Program-made: the position numbers and the translations under genes
Notes under the pieces: generated by a model
Told to the model about the DNA's origin: nothing
Seen by the model: the letters and a program-made list of their open reading frames with translations, nothing else
Database searches by the model: none
Assembly: GCA_001830425.1 (NCBI GenBank)
Contig: MIAA01000032.1
Span: forward strand, 1 to 52,838
Reading direction: 5' to 3'
DNA: 52,838 nucleotides
From: Rhodospirillales bacterium RIFCSPLOWO2_02_FULL_58_16
GTDB taxonomy: Bacteria > Pseudomonadota > Alphaproteobacteria > Rhodospirillales > 2-02-FULL-58-16
Shown: piece after piece, positions 28,433 to 35,365 of the stretch
Position numbering within the stretch: the stretch's first letter is position 1
Layout: every line of letters starts with the position of its first letter

Positions 28433-28475
28433 CCGCAGATGCGCCTTCCGGCTTGGAGCCTTTCCTTGTTTGATC

Positions 28476-29252
28476 ATGATTAATTTATTTCGTAAATCAG
28501 CGCCCCTCGCTCTTTTGCTTGTCTTTATCGGCGGCTGCGCCGAAGAACCGGAGAACGCGAAAGAGGCGGGAATTACCGAATCCGTGCATCAGGCGGCGAT
28601 GGCCTCCCAACAAAAACATGACTATGCCTCGGCGGCGAAACACTACCGGAACCTCCACGAGAAACATCCTGAGGACCTCGGCGTGCTGCTGGAGCTGGCC
28701 AAGTCCCTGCGTTACATAGGATCATCCGCCGAGGCTGCCGGAATTATGGAAGCCAAAATAAATACATTCGCCGAATTTGCTCCGTTTCTGATGGAACTGG
28801 GCAAGGCAAAACTGGCGGCGGGAGCGGCAGACGAAGCCGTCGGCTATCTGAAAATCGCCACGGAAAAAGATGCGGGAAACTGGGAAGCCTATTCCGCCAT
28901 GGGCATCGCTTATGATATGCTGCAATTATTCGACAAGGCCCTGGAATCTTATCGGAAAGCTGACGCGCTTTCTCCCGGCAACTCCGTCATTTTGAATAAC
29001 ATGGCCATCTCTTATGCCCAGGCAGGGGACGTAAAGACCGCGATCATCACCCTTAAACACGCCGCCAACGTCGGTCGCCGCAACCTGCAAATTCGCCAAA
29101 ATCTGGCCCTTTTTCACGGCATAGCCGGCAACATGGATGAAGCCGAAGCGATCGCCAGAATGGATTTGGGCGAAGATGATGTCCGAAACAATCTGGCCTT
29201 TTATTATTTGTTCCACAAAAATCAGAAACCGACAGCCCCGGCGACCCCATAG
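28476..29252 (+). CDS. TPR lipoprotein, TadD-like
   Basis: The 258-residue protein begins with a lipoprotein signal (LALLLVFIGG-C, lipobox at Cys21) and carries about four tetratricopeptide repeats (ASAAKHYRNLHEKHPEDLGV, AVGYLKIATEKDAGNWEAYS, ALESYRKADALSPGNSVILN and one more). This layout matches TadD-type and other pilus-assembly lipoproteins. A TTG six bases upstream is an alternative start. It is first in a run with a Crp/Fnr regulator and an ExeA-like ATPase, and an Flp-type pilin lies 3.6 kb away. The assembly role is inferred; TPR lipoproteins also serve in other envelope machines. Confidence 0.7.
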   Translation: MINLFRKSAPLALLLVFIGGCAEEPENAKEAGITESVHQAAMASQQKHDYASAAKHYRNLHEKHPEDLGVLLELAKSLRYIGSSAEAAGIMEAKINTFAEFAPFLMELGKAKLAAGAADEAVGYLKIATEKDAGNWEAYSAMGIAYDMLQLFDKALESYRKADALSPGNSVILNNMAISYAQAGDVKTAIITLKHAANVGRRNLQIRQNLALFHGIAGNMDEAEAIARMDLGEDDVRNNLAFYYLFHKNQKPTAPATP

Positions 29253-29267
29253 CAGGATATTCGCGCC

Positions 29268-29972
29268 TTGAACAAAAAAACCCCACCGCGCATCGACCCG
29301 GAAAGAAACCTCAACGGCGCATCCCTTCTGGTCGAGGTTCCTCCTGATATAATCGCCGATATCGAAAAAAAATGTGAGTGGTTTGAGTATGCTCCCAACG
29401 AAATCATCATTGATCTCGCCGACACCTCGACCTGCGTCTACTTCATCGTCAAGGGCAAGGTCAAGGCGATGGACTTCCTTGCTGAAAACAAGCAGGTCGC
29501 CCTGGCCGAGCTTGGCGAAGGAGACTCATTCGGCGAGTTGTCGGCCATAGATTCGAAAAAACGTTCGGCGCGGGTTACCGCCATCGAGCCTACACTTGTC
29601 GCCAAGTTGCCGAGCAAGGATTTCCGGCAGTTGATGTTGAATTGTCCGGAATCGGCTCTGGCCCTGCTGAAGAGATTCGCCGGCTTTATCCGCACCCTGA
29701 ACACCCGCCTTACCACCCTCAGCACCTTCACCCCCCACCAGCGGATTTATTATGAATTGCTGCGCATCTGCGCGCCCAACACTTCCGGCGACGGCTCCTG
29801 GGTTATTTCCAATATTCCCAATCACTCTGAAATAGCTTCCTGGGTAGGCACGGAAAAAGAAGTCGTCGCCGACGCCATCGGTAAACTGGCCCGCGACGGA
29901 GTGGTCGAACGGAAACATCGAAGCCTTATCATCAAGGATCACGCCCGCCTTTACCGGCTGGCCGAACAATAA
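29268..29972 (+). CDS. Crp/Fnr-family transcription regulator
   Basis: The 234-residue protein has a cNMP-binding fold with an apparently complete phosphate cassette (DSFGELSAIDSKKRSARV) and a C-terminal winged helix (NHSEIASWVGTEKEVVADAI, then GVVERKHRSLIIKD). The TTG start at 29268 is the only good in-frame start near the fold. It follows the TPR lipoprotein by 15 bp and lies 35 bp before the ExeA-like gene, suggesting a shared unit. It resembles the regulator at 17912-18616 only in family. It may control the surrounding envelope genes. Confidence 0.85.
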   Translation: MNKKTPPRIDPERNLNGASLLVEVPPDIIADIEKKCEWFEYAPNEIIIDLADTSTCVYFIVKGKVKAMDFLAENKQVALAELGEGDSFGELSAIDSKKRSARVTAIEPTLVAKLPSKDFRQLMLNCPESALALLKRFAGFIRTLNTRLTTLSTFTPHQRIYYELLRICAPNTSGDGSWVISNIPNHSEIASWVGTEKEVVADAIGKLARDGVVERKHRSLIIKDHARLYRLAEQ

Positions 29973-30007: not shown

Positions 30008-31663
30008 ATGTTTCGATCATTCTTCGGCATCAAGGAGAATCCGTTCTCCAATACGCCCGATCCGCGCTATGTGTTCATGAGCAGGCGCCATCAGGAGGCG
30101 TTGGCGCATCTGGTTTACGGCGTACAGGGCGGGAACGGTTTTGTTCTGCTGACCGGCGAAGTGGGAACAGGCAAGACGACAATAAGCCGCTGTCTGGTAG
30201 AGCAACTTCCCAAGAATGTGGATATGGCCCTTTGCATCAATCCCCGTCTGAACGAATTTGAATTGCTGGCCACCATCTGCGACGAGATGGGCGTCTTTTA
30301 CCCGATATTGACCAACAGCATCAAAACCCTGATGGACAAAATCAACAGGCATCTCATTGAGACCCATGCCCGAGGGCGCCGCGCCGTTCTGATCATCGAC
30401 GAGGCGCAGAATCTCGCCCCCCGGGTGCTTGAACAGGTGCGGCTGCTTACCAACCTGGAAACCGCCAGCGCCAAGCTTTTGCAGATCATTCTTATCGGTC
30501 AACCGGAGTTGAAAGAACTTCTCGGTCGGGTGGAGTTACGTCAGGTAAATCAGCGCATCACCGCACGTTATCACCTTGATCCGCTTAACATCGAAGAGGC
30601 GCGGGCCTACATACGGCATCGGCTCAAAATCGGCGGGCCGGCGGAGGATATATTCAGGCCCGGCGCCGTCACGGAAATATTCAAGCGGTCACACGGCGTC
30701 CCGCGCCTGATCAACAGCATTTGCGAACGTTGTCTGCTCGGCGCTTACGCCAAAAACGTCCGTTATATCGATGAAAAGCTGGCCCGCTCCGCCGCCGATG
30801 ACGTACTCGGCTTCCCTCGTCGGCGGTCAGTCTTCGGCAGGATCGCCGCAATAGCCGCCGTTATCGCCGCTTCGGCTCTTTTTGTCGGTCTTGATCCCCT
30901 GCATATGAGACTGAATTCCAAACTTTCCCCATCGCCGCCGGAAGCTCAACAACCGCCGGCTATCGAACGCCCGCCGGAAGTTCAACAACCGCCGGCAGAG
31001 CCGGCAATTGAACAAACGGCACAAAACGCGCCGGCGGAGATTTCCATCGAATATCTGTTCCGAAACCCGGAGTTAGCGGGAGACATAAGCACCGCCATGT
31101 CCAAACTATTCGCTATGTGGAAAGTGGAATACGTCGCTCCCGGCAAACCGGACCTGTGCGCCGGCGCCTCTTACGCCGGGATAAGATGCCTGCGATGGCA
31201 TGGAGACTGGCAAGCCCTGAACGATATCAACCGGCCCGCATTGATCTCCCTTGCCGCAGGGGAGGAAAAACGTATTTATGCGGTGGTTACGGCCCTTGAC
31301 GGCAACAACGTCACCATTGACGTCGGCGGCGGCAAAATACAAACCGATACCCGCAATCTCACCCCGTTCTGGTCGGGCGACTATATGATGCTGTGGAAGC
31401 CGCCGCCGGGTTATTGGCGAGTCATCAGGCCCGGCATGAAAGGCAAGGACGTGGCGTGGCTTAGGGATCGCCTGTCGGAAATCCAGGGCGAGCCTATAGA
31501 ATCTGATGACCGGGACAGCTTTGATGAGGCGCTTAAGATTCGACTTATTTCATTTCAGCGCAGCCGAAAACTGATCGACGACGGCGCCGCCGGCGCGCTG
31601 ACCCTGACCTATATCAACACCCTCATCAAAGACCCGGCAACTCCCGTCCTGCGGAATCAATAG
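30008..31663 (+). CDS. ExeA/GspA-like AAA ATPase with peptidoglycan-binding end
   Basis: The 551-residue protein begins MFRSFFGIKENPFSNTPDPR, the standard opening of ExeA/GspA/MshM proteins. The AAA domain shows Walker A GEVGTGKT (50-57) and Walker B LIIDEAQNL. A single transmembrane helix follows (about 275-295), then a Pro/Gln-rich periplasmic spacer, a C39-peptidase-like fold and a C-terminal peptidoglycan-binding domain (GMKGKDVAWLRDRL). In Aeromonas, ExeA with ExeB helps place the type II secretin in the cell wall; MshM works with pili. The next gene encodes the matching GspB-like protein. No secretin or other gsp gene is in the window. Confidence 0.9.
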   Translation: MFRSFFGIKENPFSNTPDPRYVFMSRRHQEALAHLVYGVQGGNGFVLLTGEVGTGKTTISRCLVEQLPKNVDMALCINPRLNEFELLATICDEMGVFYPILTNSIKTLMDKINRHLIETHARGRRAVLIIDEAQNLAPRVLEQVRLLTNLETASAKLLQIILIGQPELKELLGRVELRQVNQRITARYHLDPLNIEEARAYIRHRLKIGGPAEDIFRPGAVTEIFKRSHGVPRLINSICERCLLGAYAKNVRYIDEKLARSAADDVLGFPRRRSVFGRIAAIAAVIAASALFVGLDPLHMRLNSKLSPSPPEAQQPPAIERPPEVQQPPAEPAIEQTAQNAPAEISIEYLFRNPELAGDISTAMSKLFAMWKVEYVAPGKPDLCAGASYAGIRCLRWHGDWQALNDINRPALISLAAGEEKRIYAVVTALDGNNVTIDVGGGKIQTDTRNLTPFWSGDYMMLWKPPPGYWRVIRPGMKGKDVAWLRDRLSEIQGEPIESDDRDSFDEALKIRLISFQRSRKLIDDGAAGALTLTYINTLIKDPATPVLRNQ

Positions 31664-31670
31664 GAGCATC

Positions 31671-32894
31671 ATGTCCCTGATTCTCGACGCCCTGAAGAAA
31701 TCCGAAGAGGAGCGGAAAAGCGGAGCCGTCCCTGAGTCCGCCGCCGTCCTGAAAGACGCGCCGATGAACAAGCGCCGCCTGTGGCCGTCGGTCGCCGCCG
31801 GCGGTTTGGTCTTGTTCATCGTCGTCGTCGGCGTTTTCCTGTGGCGGTCAAGCATGGTTGAGACGCCTCCGCCGACGGCTGAACAAACGCCGGTAGCGCC
31901 GGTGGGGCCGGAGCCTCCCAAACTTACGATTAAAGCGCCACCCCCGGCAATCATCGAACCCGCGCCGGAACCGGCCAAGGTCGTTGTTGAACCCGCGCCC
32001 GCGCCCGAACCGAAACCCGCAACGGCTCCGCTCCTCCCCCCCGCCATTGACGTCAAGATTCCTGTCGTTTCCATTCCTCAGGCCGCCGTCGCCAAATCCC
32101 GCGCCGGCGAAGCCGGCGGGGCGGCGGCCCACAACAAGCGGGGCCAAGCGTTTGAACAGGAAGGACTTTATGATCGCGCCATCGAAGAATACACCAACGC
32201 CATTTTGCTGAAACCTGATTATGCGGAAGCCTATTTAGGTCGCGGCTGGACTCAGGAGGCAAAGGGAAACCATGAACAGGCCATCGACAATTTCAGCCGG
32301 GCCTTGCAGGCGTCTCCCTCTTATGGCGAGGCTTTTTTCGGACGCGGCTGGGTCCATGAGCAACTGGGGCGCTTCGATTCGGCGATTGAGGACTATACCC
32401 AGGCGATCCGTCATGCGCCGGATCTTTCCGACGCTTATTTCAGCAGAGGGTTCCTCAATTTTTACAACGAACAGCCGGACAAGGCGGCTGATGACTTTTC
32501 AAAATCTCTCCGCAAGGCGAATAAAAGCCTCGTCCCCTACGCCCTTCTTTGGCGCTATTTGAGCCGTGTCCGATCCGGCGGCGACGGCAAAAAGGAACTG
32601 GAGGAAAATGTCGGCGGCATAAACCTGAATGCATGGCCCGGCATTATTGTCGCTCTGTACATGGGAAAGGCTGATCCCTCGCAGGTGCTCGCCAAGACCA
32701 AGGATAACAATACGAAAAAACAGAGCGAAAACGAATGCGTCGCCTTCTTTTTCCTGGGGCAATACCACCTTGTGCAGGGCGACAAGGATAAAGCGGCGGC
32801 ATTTTTCCGTAAAACCCTGGACACGGGCGTCACCGGCTATCGGCAATACGAAGCCGCGAAAACAGAACTGCGGATTCTGGGAGCGCTTAAGTAA
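31671..32894 (+). CDS. GspB/MshN-like membrane protein with TPR repeats
   Basis: The 407-residue protein begins MSLILDALKKSEEERKSG, the conserved N-terminus of GspB/ExeB/MshN partners of ExeA-type ATPases. A transmembrane helix (about 43-62) is followed by a long Pro/Ala-rich spacer and then tetratricopeptide repeats (AYLGRGWTQEAKGNHEQAID, AFFGRGWVHEQLGRFDSAIE and others). It begins 7 bp after the ATPase gene, consistent with a two-protein complex across the inner membrane. GspB proper has a different C-terminal domain, so MshN-like TPR architecture is the closer match. Confidence 0.82.
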   Translation: MSLILDALKKSEEERKSGAVPESAAVLKDAPMNKRRLWPSVAAGGLVLFIVVVGVFLWRSSMVETPPPTAEQTPVAPVGPEPPKLTIKAPPPAIIEPAPEPAKVVVEPAPAPEPKPATAPLLPPAIDVKIPVVSIPQAAVAKSRAGEAGGAAAHNKRGQAFEQEGLYDRAIEEYTNAILLKPDYAEAYLGRGWTQEAKGNHEQAIDNFSRALQASPSYGEAFFGRGWVHEQLGRFDSAIEDYTQAIRHAPDLSDAYFSRGFLNFYNEQPDKAADDFSKSLRKANKSLVPYALLWRYLSRVRSGGDGKKELEENVGGINLNAWPGIIVALYMGKADPSQVLAKTKDNNTKKQSENECVAFFFLGQYHLVQGDKDKAAAFFRKTLDTGVTGYRQYEAAKTELRILGALK

Positions 32895-32897
32895 AAG

Positions 32898-33068
32898 TTA
32901 TAAATTATTAGAAACCGTATTTGAAATATCGTTATATAAATTGCCCATGCTGTCGGCATAAGTATTCAACGAAACAACAATCGCCAGAAATATAAGAGCG
33001 GCAATAAGTCCATATTCTATGGCTGTGGCGCCTGCTTCATTGTTGATCAGCCTTATTAATATTTTCAT
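32898..33068 (-). CDS. Flp/Fap-type pilin
   Basis: This 56-residue gene was read directly from the minus strand. The protein starts MKILIRLINNEAGATAIEYG and continues LIAALIFLAIVV, the signature of Flp/TadA-type prepilins: a basic leader, the GATAIEYGLIAALI motif with the conserved Glu and Tyr, and one hydrophobic helix. GAGAGAGAATC lies before the ATG at 33068. Prepilin peptidase would cleave near Gly13-Ala14. Its stop lies 3 bp from the stop of the GspB-like gene, so the two converge. No tad ATPase, platform, secretin or prepilin peptidase gene lies in the window. Confidence 0.88.
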   Translation of the reverse strand: MKILIRLINNEAGATAIEYGLIAALIFLAIVVSLNTYADSMGNLYNDISNTVSNNL

Positions 33069-33187
33069 ATGATTCTCTCTCGCCGCTCACCAAGGCCGGG
33101 CCGCATGCTACTCTTTTTTCTTCCCCGAATGAATGAAAAACCATATATCATTTGCATACATTTCCAGGATATCGAAGGTTTCTTTTC

Positions 33188-33865
33188 ATGCGCTTATTAC
33201 TTATTGAAGACAACTTGAGCCTTGCGGGCAGCGTAAAGAAAGGACTTGAGGGAGAGGGGTTCACGGTTGACGCCTTCACCACGGCGGGCGACGGCGAATC
33301 CGCGCTGGCTACCGTTAATTATGACGCGGTAATTCTGGACCTCGGTCTCCCCGATGGCGACGGCCTTGATCTTCTGCGCTCTTTGCGGGACAGGGGGGAC
33401 GGCACCCCGGTTCTTATCCTGACGGCGCGTGACGGCGTTGAAGAAAGAGTCAAGGGACTGGATAACGGAGGCGACGACTATCTGCTTAAGCCCTTTGCCA
33501 TGAACGAATTGCTTGCCCGCATTCGCGCCTTGCTGCGTCGTCCGGGCGGCATTCTGGGGATCATGCTTACCGCCGGCAACATCGGCTTTGAAACGACGTC
33601 CAGGGAAGTTTTTATCCGGGGCCGGCAAATAGCGGTTCCCCGGCGCGAACTGGAGGTTCTCGAACTGTTGATGAGGCGTTGCGGCAAAGTGGTTCCGAAG
33701 AACGTGATGGAGGAGAAAATATACGGATTCGGGGAAGAGGTTTCCTCCAACTCGGTGGAGGCGCTTATTTCCCGGCTCCGCAAGCGTCTCGCCAAATTGG
33801 GAGCATCAACGTCCATTCATACCCTGCGCGGCGTCGGATACCTGCTGGTCGCCGACGGCAATTGA
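33188..33865 (+). CDS. OmpR-family response regulator
   Basis: The 225-residue regulator has a receiver domain starting MRLLLIEDNLSLAGSVKKGL, with the phosphate-accepting Asp51 (VILDLGLPDGDGL) and Lys in YLLKPFAMNEL, and a C-terminal winged helix (VPRRELEVLELLMRRCGKVV, then SNSVEALISRLRKRL and IHTLRGVGYLL). The ATG at 33188 gives the canonical receiver start; the longer frame from 33152 is rejected. The histidine kinase gene follows by 13 bp. The pair resembles QseB/PmrA-type systems; the signal is unknown. Confidence 0.93.
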   Translation: MRLLLIEDNLSLAGSVKKGLEGEGFTVDAFTTAGDGESALATVNYDAVILDLGLPDGDGLDLLRSLRDRGDGTPVLILTARDGVEERVKGLDNGGDDYLLKPFAMNELLARIRALLRRPGGILGIMLTAGNIGFETTSREVFIRGRQIAVPRRELEVLELLMRRCGKVVPKNVMEEKIYGFGEEVSSNSVEALISRLRKRLAKLGASTSIHTLRGVGYLLVADGN

Positions 33866-33878
33866 GGGGACGGACGGC

Positions 33879-34760
33879 ATGACCTATCGAAACGTCGCTT
33901 TCGTGGCGGTCATGACGTTGCTGCTGGTCTTCTCTCTTTCCTTCATCTGGGAGTTTATGTTTGAGGATATCGTAAATGCGTTCCTCGACACCGGCCCCCC
34001 CGAGAGAGACGCCATCCGTTGGGAGTTTATCGTCACCTCAATGGTTTTTGCCGGCATCGCGGTGTTCATCTCATCCATGGCGACGATCAGGATCATATAC
34101 GAGCGCAAGCGCATAGAAGAAGACCTCCATAAGAGCGAAACCAAGTTCAGGGATTTCGCCGGCGACGTTGCCCATGAACTGCGCACTCCGTTGGCGGTGC
34201 TGAAGTTGCACCTTGATGAACTTGAAGAAGATGAAACGGCGCTGATCCTTCAAAAGGACGTGGCCGAGATGTCGCGGATGCTGGAGCAACTGCTGGCGAT
34301 AACGCGCCTGGATTCCCCGGAAAGCCTCGCCATGAATGACGTTGATCTTGGGAAAATATGCACGGACGTAGCCGAAAGACTGGCTCCTATCGCCGTCAGG
34401 GACGAGCGCCTGATCGAAGTTTGCGGCGCGGATAAGGCGGTGTTTATCAAGGGCAATGTCTACGCTTTGGAACATGCGGTGCGTAATCTGGTTGAAAACG
34501 CCATGAAATACTCCTCACGGCGAACTACGATCACCATTGAGGTCGGCGACAATTCGATCAGCGTCATTAATAACGGACAGGATATTCCACCGGAAAAGCG
34601 CGCCGCCATTTTCAAAAGATTCCAGCGCTCCGACCGCAGGAGCGACGGCGCCGGACTGGGGCTGTCCATTGTTCAGCGCGCGGTGGAAGCCCATAAAGGC
34701 AGCATCGAGATGACCGGCGTCCCCGGCGGCGGCGCAAAGTTCACGATCCGCCTGCCTTGA
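33879..34760 (+). CDS. Sensor histidine kinase
   Basis: The 293-residue kinase has two transmembrane helices (about 6-24 and 49-71) enclosing a short periplasmic loop of about 24 residues, then a HisKA domain with His99 (DVAHELRTPLAVL) and an ATPase domain with NLVENAMKYSS (N box) and SDGAGLGLSIVQRAVEAHKG (G boxes). There is no HAMP or PAS domain and the loop is too small for an ordinary sensor fold, so it may sense within the membrane or through a partner. It is cognate to the preceding OmpR-type regulator by position. Its end is 5 bp from the end of a convergent CheY-like gene. Confidence 0.92.
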   Translation: MTYRNVAFVAVMTLLLVFSLSFIWEFMFEDIVNAFLDTGPPERDAIRWEFIVTSMVFAGIAVFISSMATIRIIYERKRIEEDLHKSETKFRDFAGDVAHELRTPLAVLKLHLDELEEDETALILQKDVAEMSRMLEQLLAITRLDSPESLAMNDVDLGKICTDVAERLAPIAVRDERLIEVCGADKAVFIKGNVYALEHAVRNLVENAMKYSSRRTTITIEVGDNSISVINNGQDIPPEKRAAIFKRFQRSDRRSDGAGLGLSIVQRAVEAHKGSIEMTGVPGGGAKFTIRLP

Positions 34761-34765
34761 ATAAT

Positions 34766-35365
34766 TTAACAAGACGGGCGGGTTTGCCGGCCTTCAGTCT
34801 TGATGTATCCGGGAAAGTTGTGACGGCGCTCGTTGCCGCTATGGGAAACCTGACGCTCCCGCCGCTCCGATGCGCCGACGTTTTGGTGTCTCCGCCGTTC
34901 CATTCCATGAGAATCGAGACGGCGGCGGCGGCGATCAGGACCGAAAAATTTTGCCGAGCGCACAAACAGGCGCTGTCTTTCGATTATCGTGCGAATGCGT
35001 GAGTAAAGCAGCTTTGCCGATAGCGGCTTGGCCAGGAACTCGGTCATGCCGGCGTCCCTCGCCCTATAGACCCAATGAATATCCGTGTGCGCCGTCACCA
35101 CGATTATCGGGACGTAAGGGTTGGCCGACTCCGGGTCGCGGCGCACGCTGTTAAGAAGCCTGATGCCGTCGACTCCCGGCGACCAGTCGGTGAGTATCAG
35201 GTCAGGCTCCGCGTCCTTGAACAGTTTAAGGGCGCCATCTACACTGGAGGCATCATGAACCTTGGTTACGCCCAGCCGGTTCAGCACGCCGCACAACAGC
35301 TTGCGCATGTGACGGTGATCCTCGACTACGAGTACGCTCAAGCCGCTCAAGTTATAATCCGCCAT
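34766..35365 (-). CDS. CheY-like response regulator with a basic tail
   Basis: The 199-residue protein has one receiver domain (LSVLVVEDHRHMRKLLCGVL, phospho-acceptor Asp in LILTDWSPGVDGI, Lys in FLAKPLSAKLL). A C-terminal tail of about 60 residues follows, rich in Arg, His and Asn (FFGPDRRRRRLDSHGMERRR), with no DNA-binding domain. This receiver-plus-tail form is common in Rhodospirillales genomes. The tail repeats the pattern DRRRR/ERRR/NERR, as in proteins with an FGPDRR motif. It has no partner kinase adjacent on its strand. Function is unknown beyond phospho-signalling. Confidence 0.8.
   Translation of the reverse strand: MADYNLSGLSVLVVEDHRHMRKLLCGVLNRLGVTKVHDASSVDGALKLFKDAEPDLILTDWSPGVDGIRLLNSVRRDPESANPYVPIIVVTAHTDIHWVYRARDAGMTEFLAKPLSAKLLYSRIRTIIERQRLFVRSAKFFGPDRRRRRLDSHGMERRRHQNVGASERRERQVSHSGNERRHNFPGYIKTEGRQTRPSC

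Follow-up and report, generated by a model that had tools for sequence, protein, structure and literature searches.

A stand-alone Flp prepilin gene beside TadD- and GspA/GspB-like genes in a Rhodospirillales bacterium: a probable second pilin of the Tad pilus

Descriptions of Tad pili usually feature a major Flp pilin encoded beside tadV; additional flp genes, being tiny and far away, easily escape notice. A small prepilin gene of the latter kind, here called flp2, was predicted in a stretch of 52,838 nucleotides (the window) representing contig MIAA01000032.1, positions 1 to 52,838, of Rhodospirillales bacterium RIFCSPLOWO2_02_FULL_58_16. The locus raises the questions whether flp2 encodes a genuine prepilin, and whether its product serves the Tad pilus of this organism. 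The features discussed are as follows (basis of the assignment in parentheses):

28470..29252, plus strand: TadD-type TPR lipoprotein, lipobox IGGC recognized by eye (Pfam TPR, similarity, synteny)
29268..29972, plus strand: CRP/FNR-like regulator of the TadD block (Pfam; conserved block position)
30008..31663, plus strand: GspA/ExeA-like protein with AAA ATPase, GspA C39-like and, below cut-off, PG_binding_1 domains (Pfam, NCBIfam, synteny)
31671..32894, plus strand: GspB-like TPR protein, convergent with flp2 (Pfam, synteny)
32895..32897, no strand: 3-bp gap between the stop codons of the convergent gspB-like and flp2 genes (ORF coordinates)
32898..33068, minus strand: flp2, stand-alone Flp (Tad/type IVc) prepilin, 56 aa (Pfam, six-frame search, PDB match, tree, alignment)
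33069..33187, no strand: divergent intergenic region of 119 bp between flp2 and the response regulator gene (coordinates, promoter scan)
33188..33865, plus strand: OmpR/PhoB-type response regulator, divergent from flp2 (Pfam, NCBIfam)
33879..34760, plus strand: sensor histidine kinase, which presumably pairs with the response regulator (Pfam, NCBIfam)

Translation of the 56 codons of flp2 (MKILIRLINNEAGATAIEYGLIAALIFLAIVVSLNTYADSMGNLYNDISNTVSNNL) reads MKILIRLINNEAG/ATAIEYGLIAALI around the processing site (the slash marks cleavage). This is the G/XXXXEY site which, followed by a hydrophobic stretch (G/ATAIEYGLIAALIFLAIVVSL), characterizes the Flp/Fap family (PF04964). Cleavage between G13 and A14 is predicted to yield a mature pilin of 43 residues. 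The Flp_Fap model of Pfam scored 45.2 bits (E 8.2e-12) against a gathering cut-off of 32.2, placing the protein in PF04964, and a six-frame search of the organism's own genome also recovered the gene above the cut-off (44.3 bits, E 5.3e-11). There was no NCBIfam match at 0.01. Up to E 10 only two PDB entries matched, the Flp/Tad pilins 8u1k and 8u2b, both weakly (E ~0.003); their alignment to Flp2 begins at the predicted cleavage site. The frame is present in the open-reading-frame listing of the window, and a purine-rich GAGAGA stretch was noticed by eye in front of its ATG. A chance ORF was ruled out by the Pfam match and the existence of orthologues, and a TadE-type pseudopilin by the location of all PF07811 matches of the genome on another contig (C51).

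The GC content of flp2 is 34.5%, compared with 59.3% for the window and 52.9-58.4% for the TadD, CRP, GspA and GspB-like genes to its left; sampled every 10 bp, the window contains no other 171-bp stretch of such low GC. The original prediction had described a 56-residue Flp prepilin with the full motif, AT-rich relative to its neighbours, and it was correct on both counts. The orthologue in the nearest relative (G004) is also AT-rich (44.8% versus 59.4% for its locus). Because it occupies the same place, recent horizontal arrival was rejected as the sole cause of the AT-richness.

The genome to which the window belongs (G000; the window is contig C32) consists of 53 contigs and is given as 100% complete. 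It contains four Flp_Fap matches, of which two are above the cut-off: flp2 and a second gene, flp1 (at about C30:12459-12483), which scores above flp2 and is followed by a TadV-type peptidase gene (C30:12698). The Tad core, with CpaB-C-D-E, TadA-B-C and TadE/F-type genes, is on C51. The search for other flp genes and a tad locus, suggested as a check of the original prediction, has thus turned up both, and the tad system appears spread over three contigs, with flp2 and a TadD arm on C32, flp1-tadV on C30 and the core on C51. The TadA-type motor, the TadV-type peptidase and flp1 are each present once. Apart from the motor, a strong T2SSE ATPase match occurs at a single place, next to a GspD/PilD-type locus on C3; the same contig encodes the one further A24-family peptidase, beside a GspD-like secretin. 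The major pilin gene of a tad locus is directly upstream of tadV/cpaA; flp2 is not, being on C32 when tadV is on C30.

Among the genes to the left of flp2, the GspA-like gene encodes a protein that scored 89.4 bits with AAA_22 and 34.1 bits with GspA_C39-like, both over the cut-off, and 20.5 bits with PG_binding_1 (cut-off 23); its ATPase also scored on the XrtA/PEP-CTERM ATPase model, below the cut-off of that model. The 31671-32894 product is presumably GspB-like, judging from its N-terminal motif, and in a search against the genome contigs it gave two distant loci only. For the 28470-29252 product no dedicated TadD model matched, and its PDB matches up to 1e-5 were generic TPR proteins with no TadD structure among them. 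Its matches among 150 relatives were informative: 82 genomes had both such a match and CpaE, and in 57 of them no more than 15 kb separated CpaE from the best lipoprotein match; in the other 25, the window's genome included, this was not the case. Many of these genomes are fragmented, therefore "not linked" often means another contig.

Six relatives (G005, G011, G022, G043, G088 and G146), spanning families f1, f3, f14 and f27, have the four-gene block with its gene order unchanged, either next to tad genes or divergent from them. The tad genes at the block were TadA-C and CpaC-E in five of the six, and CpaB with TadE/F at a contig end in G011; the block regions of G088, G146 and G043 consisted of two adjoining stretches each. 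In G004 the block adjoins TadE/F, and in G003 only its first part is present, broken at the contig end. Because of the linkage to CpaE and the tad genes adjoining the block in relatives, the 28470-29252 product can be named TadD, by similarity and synteny; TadD is the pilotin of the Tad secretin according to passages of PMC10499894. These comparisons suggest that flp2 adjoins a detached arm of a Tad superlocus. For this reason the earlier statement that the pilin gene had no tad genes around it must be abandoned: a TadD-type gene is present at 28470-29252, and the block to which it belongs has tad genes next to it in relatives. The designation orphan is appropriate in so far as neither tadV nor the motor genes are near flp2, but not in the sense of isolation, as the TadD arm adjoins flp2 and the genome has a Tad machine.

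In type II secretion systems GspA and GspB help the secretin through the peptidoglycan; as an alternative, GspB can work together with a pilotin (passages of PMC9239104). Two secretins are encoded in G000, CpaC on C51 and the GspD-like protein on C3, and if the GspA/GspB-like genes served the latter, the position of flp2 would say little about Tad. Such an assignment would fit the classical role of GspA/GspB as T2SS factors (passages of PMC9239104), the score of the ATPase on the XrtA/PEP-CTERM model, and the distance of the GspA-like gene from TadD in families f21 and f31. The distribution of the gene points the other way. A high-scoring GspA-like gene (250-bit line, set after seeing the gap between 293.8 and 207.5 bits) was present in 22 genomes, and CpaE was found in 21 of these as opposed to 87 of 150 overall (Fisher p 4e-5, ignoring relatedness); in 8 of the 22 the gene was at most 5 kb from a TadD match. 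When the window's genome was excluded, the other 21 GspA genomes had a single secretin in 11 cases, more in 8 and none in 2 fragmented ones, and all 11 single secretins adjoined a CpaE match. Because GspA co-occurs with CpaE and the sole secretin of 11 genomes adjoins CpaE, the pair probably serves the Tad secretin, and a function with the C3 secretin appears unlikely.

To place flp2 among Flp pilins, a tree was built from 71 sequences on ~56 columns, after 6 of 77 motif finds had been removed by eye as non-pilins. Flp2 belongs to a clade of eleven (support 100/97), separate from the tadV-linked pilins, whose members (the window, G004, G010, G025, G045, G043, G049, G029, G063, G096 and G110) represent five families (f1, f2, f14, f17 and f21). 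When 11 long-branch rows were left out of the tree, the clade, now of ten sequences, was recovered again (100/98). In the stretches retrieved, none of the eleven immediately precedes tadV; tadV is ~5 kb away in G010 and on the same contig in G043, where the clade Flp is located inside the block, between CRP and GspA. The f21 members are near rarD-like genes and not tad genes, and the f17 members are beside ilvC-like genes (all named by eye). The C-terminal half is distinctive, with F or C at mature position 14 in 9 of 11 sequences and an SMGN(M/L)(F/Y)N-like stretch. A profile of the clade was run against 385 genomes of the class but did not tell its members apart from ordinary Flp pilins: it found 29 loci outside the window's genome, 27 of which gave a pilin by motif, 21 of these with a TadV match nearby, and only one (L177, in G311) resembles the clade by eye. 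The closest pair of clade sequences (G025/G045) had a pN/pS of 0.08; in the seven other reported pairs the value was 0.11-0.36, with synonymous sites near saturation. In G025 the clade member is the sole Flp match, and no CpaE match reached 1e-15 in G025 or G045, so some of the clade may have no function in Tad pili, or these assemblies may be incomplete.

These data bear on the possibility that flp2 arose by duplication of flp1, was left behind when the tad locus split, and is now decaying, drifting toward AT and not expressed. Its low GC content, with a GC3 of 0.36 compared with 0.70 for flp1, its lower Pfam score and the precedent of a silent orphan Flp, flp3 of Bdellovibrio (passages of PMC5430801), would be compatible with decay. 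However, motif and frame are intact, flp2 groups with pilins of other families and not with flp1, pN/pS is well below 1 across the clade, and the G004 orthologue shares both the AT-richness and the place. Since the clade unites eleven sequences from five families with pN/pS values of 0.08-0.36, flp2 is, judging from these comparisons, an old stand-alone Flp lineage and not a decayed flp1 copy; decay is quite improbable. That Flp2 is a pseudopilin of the secretin-assembly arm, acting with GspA/GspB/TadD and not as a filament subunit, is very improbable: flp2 adjoins the arm in G000 and G004 and the G043 member is inside it, but clade members are apart from the arm in f2, f17 and f21, and Flp2, which is without a globular domain, aligns with filament-forming Flp pilins.

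We consider it likely that Flp2 is a second Flp pilin, alternative or minor, of the organism's Tad pilus. The TadV-type peptidase would cut the prepilin after Gly13, and the 43-residue product would be inserted in the inner membrane, polymerised by TadA/B/C, the single machine encoded on C51, and exported through the CpaC secretin, in whose assembly TadD and the GspA/GspB-like pair would help. In the pilus, Flp2 would accompany Flp1 as a subunit that is minor or used under particular conditions. The separation of flp2 from the rest of the locus could have arisen by splitting of an ancestral superlocus. Finally, a promoter of its own, shared with the divergent two-component system, may time flp2 separately; this is the weakest step.

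Between flp2 and the response regulator gene (33069-33187) no sigma-70-type promoter match was found, and tblastn gave no match for the response regulator and the histidine kinase in the G004 stretch beside flp2. Control of flp2 by the two-component system is a guess. On the other side, the GspB-like gene stops at 32894 and flp2, in tail-to-tail orientation, at 32898, which confirms the predicted 3-bp gap. The gap leaves no room for a terminator, and the same convergent order is found in G004, with a 17-bp gap. For these reasons interference between the flp2 and gspB transcripts is possible. A terminator scan gave two minus-strand sites against 1.0 expected. Just 3' of the histidine kinase gene, an ORF on the minus strand (34766-35365) looks receiver-domain-like by eye, so that up to three signalling genes adjoin flp2.

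Flp2 shares with the major pilins of PF04964 (Caulobacter PilA, Aggregatibacter Flp1; Flp/Tad, type IVc) the short leader, the G/XXXXEY site and the mature length of ~43 residues. It differs from them in that it is not encoded beside tadV, forms its own clade, has a different C-terminal half and is much more AT-rich at the DNA level. Orphan Flp pilins are already known, also from Bdellovibrio, a member of a different phylum. There, predation depends on one of the non-TAD flp genes, and another is silent; like flp2, flp3 and flp4 are outside the TAD locus, and a motif search gave an unannotated ORF in that case too, but the passages of this study (PMC5430801) mention no TadD/GspA/GspB block. 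In Sinorhizobium meliloti the orphan Flp SMc02446 (57 aa) is encoded outside the tad cluster, and its use in pili is raised by the authors; Agrobacterium fabrum has a second Flp, and its two pilins are stated to be interchangeable (passages of PMC10934763). Judged by their description, both resemble flp2 as Flps outside the tad cluster of a genome that has one. According to the same passages, SMc02446 shares an operon with the gene of a hypothetical membrane protein, whereas flp2 is alone and convergent with the gspB-like gene.

The GspA/GspB (ExeA/ExeB) pair of T2SS, as described in passages of PMC9239104, has in common with the pair found here an AAA ATPase with a GspA C39-like domain next to a protein with a GspB-like N-terminus. 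Unlike the T2SS pair, the genes in the window are encoded with TadD, and beside tad genes in relatives, and the GspB-like protein carries TPR repeats. MshM/MshN of MSHA pili is a comparable pair. Homology between TadD and MshN has been noted (passages of PMC6668835). A literature search (titles and abstracts; passages of PMC6668835, PMC10499894, PMC10305379 and PMC9239104) found no description of a Tad-linked GspA/ExeA arm; likewise, the search found none of a conserved stand-alone Flp clade beside a GspA/GspB-bearing Tad arm. Of the two, we regard the arm as more interesting than the orphan pilin. Placed beside TadD, the pair would make it testable whether Tad secretins require a peptidoglycan-dependent assembly step as in T2SS, and the conserved clade offers a defined target for the role of second Flp pilins. 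Tentatively, and with less confidence than in the role of Flp2 itself, we propose that Tad loci in this order ancestrally had a TadD-CRP-GspA-GspB/TPR arm, the Tad secretin being assembled by a T2SS-like peptidoglycan-binding GspA/GspB pair plus pilotin, and that the distinct stand-alone Flp clade, with or apart from the arm, would be a dedicated second pilin (e.g. one that initiates the pilus, forms its tip or is used under particular conditions); in the window's genome this system would be split over three contigs.

Several minor observations were made in the course of the searches. Three stand-alone Flps (L091, L092 and L093 in G075, G138 and G124) have the same rarD-like neighbours as the f21 clade members; they are strongly diverged, with long branches outside the clade, and are possibly the same gene evolving fast. 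At six f21 loci (L162, L163, L164, L165, L166 and L169), each in a different genome, the GspA-like gene is distant from TadD and has a different response-regulator receiver-domain gene divergent from it, within ~1 kb. Two Flp-like prepilins of G000, under the Pfam cut-off with 26.9 and 24.4 bits (L003, C29:47050-47163, and L004, C42:17904-18023), combine a pair of cysteines with a long tail rich in Asp/Glu and are apart from tad genes; one adjoins secDF/yajC-like genes (named by eye), and a third acidic-tailed prepilin of this type is in G103 (L095). On C51, the gene of a protein of ~379 aa (L016, C51:17368-18507), which we take to be DUF2336-like, separates the CpaB side from the TadE/F genes; it is kept in the Tad loci of G004, G005, G011 and G088, and is inverted beside TadD in G003.
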